From Ruania alkalisoli (GTDB taxonomy: Bacteria; Actinomycetota; Actinomycetes; Actinomycetales; Beutenbergiaceae): a stretch of 64,000 bases of DNA. Under the pieces are notes generated by a model, which searched no databases, was not told where the DNA came from, and was given only the letters and a program-made list of their open reading frames with translations. Each line of letters begins with the position of its first letter. Positions within the stretch are counted from its first letter, which is position 1. Shown here in pieces: positions 56,797 through 59,136 of the stretch. The stretch covers positions 4,249,581-4,313,580 of the forward strand of contig NZ_CP063169.1 of assembly GCF_014960965.1 (NCBI RefSeq), in the 5' to 3' direction. Made by a program: the position numbers and the translations under genes.

Positions 56797-57606
56797 ATGC
56801 TGATCTGTGCCACGTGCGCGGTGGAATACGACGAACCCGCCCCCGAGGTCTGCCCCATCTGCGCAGACGAACGCCAGTACCTGCCCGTCGGTGGGCAACG
56901 CTGGACCACCCTGACCGAGCTGGCTGAGGCGGGCACCACGCTCACCTGGGCCGAGACTGAACCGGACGTGCATTGCATCAGCACACGGGACGCCGTCGGG
57001 ATCGGGCAGACCGCCCAGCTGGTGCGCACCTCGCAGGGTTCGCTGCTGTGGGACCCGCCCGGCTTCTTGGACGCCGACGGCGTTGCCCGGGTTCGCGCAC
57101 AGGGCCCGGTTCTCGCGGTGGCCGCCAGCCACCCGCACATGTTCGGCGTACAGGTGGAGTGGGCGCGGGCGCTCGATGCGCAGGTGCTGGTGGCCGAGGC
57201 GGATGCGATGTGGCTCGGCCGGACGGACGAGCGGGTGCAGGTCTGGTCCGGGACGCACGACGTGCTGCCCGGGCTCACGTTGCACCAGGTGGGCGGGCAC
57301 TTCGCCGGCTCGGCGGTGGCGTTGTGGACGCAGGGGGCCGAAGGCAGGGGGTTGCTACTCACCGGGGACACCATCTTCCCGAACCCGGACCGAGCGTCGG
57401 TGGGGTTCCTGCGCAGCTACCCGAACAAGATCCCCCTCTCCGCCGCAGTGGTGGAGCGGATCGCCGCCCAGCTGGAGACGCTGACCTTCGACCGGATCGT
57501 GGGGAACTTCGGCAACGTGATCGACTCCGGCGGGCAAGAAGTGCTGCGCCGCTCGGCCGAGCGGCACATCGCGTGGGTTCGCGGGGATTTCGACCACCTC
57601 ACGTGA
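56797..57606 (+). CDS. MBL-fold metallo-hydrolase with zinc ribbon
   Basis: 269 aa. An N-terminal rubredoxin/zinc-ribbon knuckle (Cys4, Cys7, Cys19, Cys22) precedes a metallo-beta-lactamase fold. The usual HxHxDH site reads SHPHMFG, with VGGHF and LTGDTIF supplying later ligands, so at least one metal site looks incomplete. The protein is probably cytoplasmic; substrate unknown. ATG 56797 is 6 bases after CACGAT (56785-56790). It ends 42 bp before the MerR start and just before the MerR operator. Confidence 0.8.
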   Translation: MLICATCAVEYDEPAPEVCPICADERQYLPVGGQRWTTLTELAEAGTTLTWAETEPDVHCISTRDAVGIGQTAQLVRTSQGSLLWDPPGFLDADGVARVRAQGPVLAVAASHPHMFGVQVEWARALDAQVLVAEADAMWLGRTDERVQVWSGTHDVLPGLTLHQVGGHFAGSAVALWTQGAEGRGLLLTGDTIFPNPDRASVGFLRSYPNKIPLSAAVVERIAAQLETLTFDRIVGNFGNVIDSGGQEVLRRSAERHIAWVRGDFDHLT

Positions 57607-57611
57607 GGCTC

Positions 57612-57642
57612 TTGCCCTGGAGTGCACTCCAGGAGTGACACT
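57612..57642 (+). promoter_or_regulatory. MerR promoter with perfect 18-bp operator
   Basis: TTGCCC (57612-57617), a 19-bp spacer holding the palindrome CCTGGAGTGCACTCCAGG (57616-57633), then GACACT (57637-57642), which is 6 bases from the MerR ATG. Confidence 0.88.
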
Positions 57643-57648
57643 GGGGCC

Positions 57649-58029
57649 ATGTCGCTCACCATCGCCGAGGCTGCCCAGCGGCTCGGGCTCGCCGTGGACA
57701 CGTTGCGCTACTACGAGAAGGACGGCCTGCTGCTACGGCCGGTGCCGCGCTCGAGTGCCGGGCACCGCCGCTTCCAAGCAGAGGATCTGCGCTGGATCGA
57801 GTTGATCACGCGACTGCGGGCCACCGGGATGCCGATCCGGGAGGTGCGCCGGTACGCGGACCTGGTGCGCGCAGGTAGCGGGAACGAACGCGAACGCCTG
57901 GAGCTGCTGCAGGGGCACCGGGAGGCGGTACTCGCCCAGCTCGCCGAGGCACAGACACACCTGGCCGCGATCGAGTACAAGATCGACCTCTACACCGATC
58001 GGCTCGGGGCGGAGTGCCTCTCTGCCTGA
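57649..58029 (+). CDS. MerR-family regulator of aldo/keto reductase gene
   Basis: 126 aa. Winged HTH (about 3-70: [25 protein letters not shown]) and a dimerisation helix, ending with [13 protein letters not shown]. It contains one Cys, near the end, and none in a SoxR- or MerR-type cluster. Start 57649 is chosen because GACACT lies 6 bases before it. The next gene, an aldo/keto reductase, starts 53 bp downstream behind a nearly identical operator, so the regulator probably activates both. YhdM/AdhR-type aldehyde sensors are the closest functional analogy. Confidence 0.92.
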
Positions 58030-58044
58030 GCCGGTACGTCGTAC

Positions 58045-58075
58045 TTGACCTGGAGCGCGCTCCAGCGGCTTCACT
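58045..58075 (+). promoter_or_regulatory. MerR-type promoter of aldo/keto reductase gene
   Basis: TTGACC (58045-58050), a 19-bp spacer with the palindrome CTGGAGCGCGCTCCAG (58050-58065), then TTCACT (58070-58075), 7 bases before the ATG. Only the central bases differ from the operator at 57616-57633. Confidence 0.88.
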
Positions 58076-58082
58076 CGATTCC

Positions 58083-59075
<993 letters not shown>

Positions 59076-59090
59076 ACGCGATCCGCCCTG

Positions 59091-59136
59091 TGCTTGGGCC
59101 GAACGCTGCTTGGCCGAACGCTGCTTGGCCGAACGC
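59091..59136. repeat. Short tandem repeat
   Basis: Three near-identical units of TGCTTGGCCGAACGC (first unit has one extra G), 16+15+15 bp, just after the aldo/keto reductase stop. Confidence 0.9.

Follow-up and report, generated by a model that had tools for sequence, protein, structure and literature searches.

A predicted self-regulated module of a MerR-family regulator and an aldo/keto reductase with twin operators and putatively leaderless genes in Ruania alkalisoli

The closest described relatives of the regulator studied here are NmlR and AdhR of Haemophilus influenzae, Neisseria and Bacillus subtilis, which likewise have a sensor-domain-less fold and control an adjoining oxidoreductase gene; their partner is adhC-estD, whereas the present regulator is paired with an aldo/keto reductase. 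As described in PMC4776306, Cys54 of H. influenzae NmlR (HiNmlR) and Cys52 of AdhR are needed and absolutely conserved in the NmlR clade, and the nmlR genes of Neisseria and Haemophilus are divergent, in contrast to the twin promoters of the present locus, which point in the same direction. The metal-sensing members of the family, ZntR, CueR, MerR and CadR, resemble the present regulator in that their operator lies in a long promoter spacer and that its arm varies together with a residue of the recognition helix, as it does here with residue 17. Unlike them, the present regulator has no metal-binding cysteine pair, and the gene under its predicted control encodes an aldo/keto reductase. At MerR promoters with 19–20 bp spacers, efficient use is reported to depend on kinking of the DNA by the regulator, and shortening these spacers abolishes the response (PMC9909328). 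Leaderless genes, whose start codon stands directly behind the promoter, make up 20% of the genes of C. diphtheriae, and in C. glutamicum the leaderless share of the transcripts is about 33% (PMC5784534). The same placement of the start codon is found at both genes of the present locus; here the leaderless state is a prediction from sequence, and each of the two genes also has a MerR-type operator. Among the titles and abstract openings listed, none gave an account of a MerR/aldo-keto reductase module with twin operators, though one could exist, and no paper was found with the sequence letters of operator 1.

The locus lies in a stretch of 64,000 nucleotides of the R. alkalisoli genome (contig NZ_CP063169.1, positions 4,249,581 to 4,313,580), here called the window, and its features are collected in Table 1. 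An earlier note on this DNA had placed a palindrome within the 19-bp spacer between the −35 and −10 boxes of each of two promoters, and both were indeed read there: each palindrome is perfect, is 16 bp long and has a first C that doubles as the final base of the −35 box. The regulator promoter has the layout TTGCCCTGGAGTGCACTCCAGGAGT-GACACT (spacer 57618–57636), followed after 6 nt by the ATG at 57649, and the reductase promoter the layout TTGACCTGGAGCGCGCTCCAGCGGC-TTCACT (spacer 58051–58069), followed after 7 nt by the ATG at 58083. Compared with TTGACA, the −35 boxes of the regulator and the reductase agree at 4/6 and 5/6 bases, respectively, and compared with TATAAT, both −10 boxes agree at 3/6. 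We consider it likely that the locus is a self-regulated two-gene module with a MerR switch at both promoters and leaderless mRNAs. The gene upstream of the regulator (56797–57606) has a cysteine-rich start and by eye resembles that of a metallo-beta-lactamase-fold hydrolase, although neither Pfam nor NCBIfam matched it at E 0.001; its membership of the module is unsupported, and by eye its end is absent before operator 1 in a relative (L015).

Table 1. Coordinates of the promoter elements, putative operators and genes of the module in the window
Feature	Position	Strand	Basis
−35 box TTGCCC, regulator promoter	57612..57617	+	Read from sequence; register common to relatives
Operator 1 (putative), CTGGAGTGCACTCCAG	57617..57632	+	Arms retained in 4/4 genus genomes with a regulator match
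−10 box GACACT, regulator promoter	57637..57642	+	19 bp past the −35 box, ATG 6 nt on
126-residue MerR-family regulator without effector domain; predicted leaderless	57649..58029	+	Pfam MerR_1, MerR-DNA-bind; HiNmlR-like
−35 box TTGACC, reductase promoter	58045..58050	+	Read from sequence
Operator 2 (putative), CTGGAGCGCGCTCCAG	58050..58065	+	Read from sequence; genus genomes
−10 box TTCACT, reductase promoter	58070..58075	+	19 bp past the −35 box, ATG 7 nt on
Aldo/keto reductase, 330 aa, predicted leaderless	58083..59075	+	Pfam Aldo_ket_red 2.2e-73; perakine reductase 2.8e-96

The window contains two copies of TTGNNCTGGAGNNNNCTCCAG; 100 shuffles yielded none. With two mismatches allowed, the dyad shows no enrichment in the window, where 5.03 instances were expected and 3 were counted, so that the case for operators rests on the exact arms, the register and the conservation. 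Across the whole genome, exact CTGGAGN4CTCCAG was found at three places, namely the two promoter sites and position 1877273, where it forms the tip of a longer terminator-like hairpin (L001:1494-1523; G000:C1:1877273). A genome scan for TTG-N5-GAG-N4-CTC returned 14 places, below the backward control (24 + 17 = 41); besides operators 1 and 2, full arms were present at only one of the 14 (L157), which has no in-register start codon, and the 14 include none of the 10 places with one mismatch and not the third exact place either. The search of the genome for further CTGGAG-N4-CTCCAG sites, which the earlier note had proposed, brought out no third convincing site, and the circuit therefore looks local and self-regulating. 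Eight genomes of the genus, that of the window included, were scanned with a pattern of −35 box, arms, spacer and ATG. Exactly two such promoter-to-ATG units were present in each of the four genomes with a regulator match (E 1e-12), and none in the four genomes without one; the backward control gave 0. Thus, the relatives support the palindromes as operators of the MerR-family regulator, with binding as a prediction. Chance palindromes were ruled out by the absence from the 100 shuffles together with the co-occurrence in the genus, despite there being no excess of the loose dyad. The wider proposal that the palindromes arose by chance or have another role, such as that of RNA hairpins, could draw on the unenriched two-mismatch dyad and on the terminator-like hairpin at one of the three exact genomic places, but the presence of the sites tracks that of the regulator in the genus, and conservation extends to the register, the distance to the start codon and the residue-17 link. 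We regard this proposal as extremely improbable.

The pairing of regulator and operator was analysed in 74 loci with a site score of at least 6, over 120 regulator positions. Residue 17, in the recognition helix, had the highest shuffle-corrected mutual information of the 120 positions with operator bases −6 (0.553 bits, Z 15.8) and −8 (0.412 bits, Z 16.6), and base −7 was almost invariant in these loci. By the commonest base per locus, G stood at −6 in all 19 loci with Asp or Glu at residue 17, as against 6/55 loci with His or Tyr. Some genomes with His17 carry TTCGAG arms at both operators (e.g., L019 and L044), and some His17 loci have arms that are mixed between the two sites (L054, L057, L060 and L129). 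On the best tree, residue 17 changed state 8 times, with a single independent pair on well-supported branches, which leaves the descent-corrected test underpowered. By our own alignment with family sequences, we take residue 17 to be position 14 of Korostelev et al. Their study describes recognition-helix residue 2 as the most correlated one in five metal-resistance MerR subfamilies, and an Asp-G pair is reported there for gammaproteobacterial HMRTR regulators (Korostelev et al., 2016, PMC5045206). The conserved twin sites, the residue-17 link and the co-occurrence in the genus uphold the idea, put forward earlier, of one regulator for both promoters in a compact two-gene module, and it is very probable from these sequence comparisons that a single regulator serves both.

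The regulator has the features of the MerR family, that is, a winged-helix domain, a coiled-coil helix and a dyad in 19-bp spacers. Pfam MerR_1 matched at 63.9 bits (cut-off 21.6) and MerR-DNA-bind at 32.6 bits (cut-off 25.4), and in the structural model (mean pLDDT 94.7) a long C-terminal helix of residues 80–125 ends the chain. A fold search returned MerR structures at the top, the nearest of which was HiNmlR (5d8c, 5d90 and 5e01), titled in the PDB as a MerR regulator without a sensor domain, bound to promoter DNA. The best NCBIfam match was NmlR (NF041849), at 82 bits against a curated cut-off of 175, and the cysteine position that defines the NmlR clade is Arg55 in the window regulator. 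These two results ruled out filing the protein as NmlR; with the diagnostic cysteine absent, membership of this thiol-sensing clade fails a defining test, and sensing probably does not rely on a thiol. The regulator may still handle DNA as NmlR does. Among the 81 reductase-linked relatives, 58 have Arg at position 55, 13 have Lys, 4 have Cys and 6 have another residue; in 60 of the 81, no cysteine occurs within the matched part. The only cysteine of the window regulator, Cys123, is Tyr in a 92%-identical relative (L016). The statement that the regulator has no cysteine set of the metal- or cluster-binding type is correct as it was worded, this one cysteine notwithstanding.

The wider survey covered 122 loci: the family search supplied 13, that of the window among them, genome contigs 80 and the class search 29. 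The genome-contig loci were the best 80 of at least 581 confirmed places; the class-search loci were drawn from the best 30 matches. After removal of four loci whose regulator sequence was a repeat, 118 distinct regulators remained, and the closest named relative among the matches listed was Ruania rhizosphaerae (L041, 92%). Sites were called in the stretch from 130 nt before to 10 nt after the inferred start, on the basis of a GAG-N4-CTC dyad whose arms match and an in-register TTGAC-like box, at a score of 5 of 8, which passes some weak sites (e.g., L018, L059 and L134). The results showed a dyad in the same register before 60/118 regulators and 43/89 reductases of the sampled loci. As background, 180 places met the criterion in 1,282,420 positions on both strands, real and repeated loci included, which corresponds to a rate of at most about 0.02 matches per stretch searched. 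No operator was called by this criterion at 58/118 regulators, some of which belong to a sister clade with another dyad, while others may have wrongly inferred starts.

Nine regulators (L066, L067, L070, L071, L073, L074, L077, L080 and L089) carry Cys53 and have no reductase found nearby. The dyad that follows TTGACG in these loci is a different one, GATGGAGA-TGTCCATC or a variant with a single changed base, and one neighbouring gene in each of three loci encodes a glycosyltransferase (L067), a beta-lactamase-fold protein (L080) and an MFS transporter (L071). An operator of the same kind as those of the window, with TTAGAG or TTCGAG arms, stands before the regulator in eight records whose titles name cyanobacteria, Chloroflexi or Anaerolineae (L091, L095, L099, L102, L104, L110, L112 and L114). 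In another locus, a zinc-type alcohol dehydrogenase gene, divergent from the regulator, takes the place of the reductase, and the DNA between the two genes carries a pair of dyads with CTGGAG arms placed head to head (L026:1866-1978).

A reductase scoring above 250 bits was found near 81/118 distinct regulators, and in 77 of these 81 loci the two genes share a strand and the reductase follows the regulator within 700 nt. Both operators were present in 26 of the reductase-linked loci, only that of the regulator in 25, only that of the reductase in 17, and neither in 13. The distance from start to start was 402–490 nt in 25 of the 26 two-operator loci (648 nt in the remaining one) and 347–371 nt in 21 of the 25 loci with the regulator's operator only; in 32 of the 35 measurable reductase-linked loci that lack a reductase operator, the reductase starts within 4 nt of the regulator stop. 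The −10 boxes follow the type of promoter. For regulators in two-operator loci the box is GACACT in 13/26, with A at position 2 in 24/26; for regulators without a found reductase operator it is mostly TANNNT (T first in 24/34, A second in 33/34); and for reductases it is TTGRCT-like, with T at position 2 in 31/43 and a last T in 43/43. An A at position 2 of the −10 box is normally needed for promoter opening, and its absence from most reductase boxes counts against the proposed promoter reading. It is possible that the differing boxes would hold the regulator at a basal level and the reductase tightly off.

The position of the start codon behind these promoters is nearly fixed, a feature that goes beyond what the earlier note had observed. 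An in-frame start codon lies 5–8 nt past the −10 box in 57/60 regulator and 42/43 reductase promoters (99/103 in all), and 82 of these 99 codons are ATG; in the control slots of 9–12, 13–16 and 17–20 nt, a start codon was found in 2, 4 and 2 of the 103. The exceptions are L095 (a cyanobacterium by record title), L102 (an Anaerolineae bacterium), L118 (Exilibacterium) and L121. Transcription usually starts about 7 nt past the −10 box. Since the −10 boxes of the window stand 6 and 7 nt before the ATGs, transcription most likely begins at the start codon or within about one base of it, and both mRNAs are therefore predicted to be leaderless, in the sense of a 5′ untranslated region of 0–5 nt, with the 37–38 bp before each ATG holding promoter and operator. 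The AGGAG motif 13 nt 5′ of the regulator ATG lies inside the regulator promoter and would then be untranscribed. It could be argued instead that the genes are leadered, that transcription starts elsewhere and that the gap of 6–7 nt reflects an operator overlapping the start region. Several reductase ATGs are preceded by GG-rich sequence, four loci depart from the gap, and a Shine-Dalgarno likeness (anti-Shine-Dalgarno pairing at −6 kcal/mol or better) was found at 15/42 starts of reductases with their own operator, a modest excess over the 22% in shuffles. The regulator starts, however, show no excess (13/57 against 22%), reductase starts without their own operator do (22/35 over the 118 distinct loci), and the next slots are nearly empty compared with the filled 5–8 nt slot; we therefore consider leadered genes unlikely.

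For the self-regulated module that we prefer, the mechanism would be as follows. A dimer of the 126-residue MerR-type protein would bind both palindromes, each within its 19-bp promoter spacer. Without a signal, the bound dimer would keep both promoters hard for RNA polymerase to open; with the signal, it would realign the −35 and −10 boxes and so raise the expression of the regulator gene and the reductase. Within this module, we infer binding, twisting, the transcription start, the inducer and a detoxifying role, the twisting by analogy with the MerR family at large. Alternatively, the regulator might act as a repressor only, blocking polymerase at both promoters and leaving on induction with no twisting of the DNA. 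The dyads fill the space between the −35 and −10 boxes, and sequence alone accommodates either mode; spacers of 19–20 bp, by contrast, mark MerR-activated promoters (PMC9909328), and a pure repressor would have no need of them. The register is kept in the listed promoters, a list that was itself selected for an in-register −35 box. Simple repression is thus given a small probability beside activation by twisting. As for the signal, carbonyl stress is a fair guess that draws on the partner enzyme and on the AdhR/NmlR relatives, and it would act by a route other than the known cysteine one: aldehydes or methylglyoxal are suggested by relatives whose required cysteine is absent here.

Among solved structures, by far the best relative of the reductase is perakine reductase (2.8e-96 over residues 8–322), followed by IolS (2.2e-46) and AKR13B2 (3e-44). 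We take perakine reductase to be a member of AKR13, and Asp54, Tyr59, Lys84 and His127 of the window reductase presumably fill the roles of the AKR tetrad. AKR13B2 is no closer than IolS, and the assignment of the reductase to the AKR13 subfamily is therefore likely rather than settled. Just past its stop codon lie three tandem 15-bp units (59091–59136).

The reductase might itself be the sensor, relaying its substrate- or NADPH-bound state by direct contact to the sensor-less regulator. Such a role would suit a regulator that has no effector domain, the 60/81 reductase-linked regulators with no cysteine in the matched part, and the reductase gene near 81/118 distinct regulators. In two genomes of one genus (G095 and G165; L145, L164 and L165), moreover, a single open frame, 500 residues long in one and 494 in the other, spans both regulator and reductase, and these fusions are the main reason for keeping a sensing reductase under consideration. 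Before the G165 fusion, in a sequence with a few undetermined bases, the operator is followed by a TAGCTT box, and 6 nt separate this box from an in-frame ATG; a TAGCTT box also stands behind the operator of the G095 fusion (L145). The reductase part of the fusion could partly be translated from an inner ATG. Against sensing by the reductase, the fusion and the gene neighbourhood can be explained by co-expression alone, and HiNmlR likewise lacks a sensor domain and is not known to have a partner protein. We therefore judge a relay through the reductase to be rather doubtful. The same low weight applies to its full form, in which the reductase would sense aldehyde or NADPH for a sensor-less MerR activator by contact, permanent in the fusion, at leaderless twin promoters.

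The predicted arrangement of regulator, reductase and operators is common to many actinobacteria. The 60/81 reductase-linked relatives that are free of cysteine in the matched part offer a clean system for asking how sensor-domain-less MerR proteins detect their signal. The natural series of operators that goes with Asp or His at residue 17 makes part of the family's recognition code testable by a single swap between these two residues. Moreover, with promoter and operator held within 37–38 bp before the start codon, the regulated unit predicted here would be a very small one and a possible sensor cassette.
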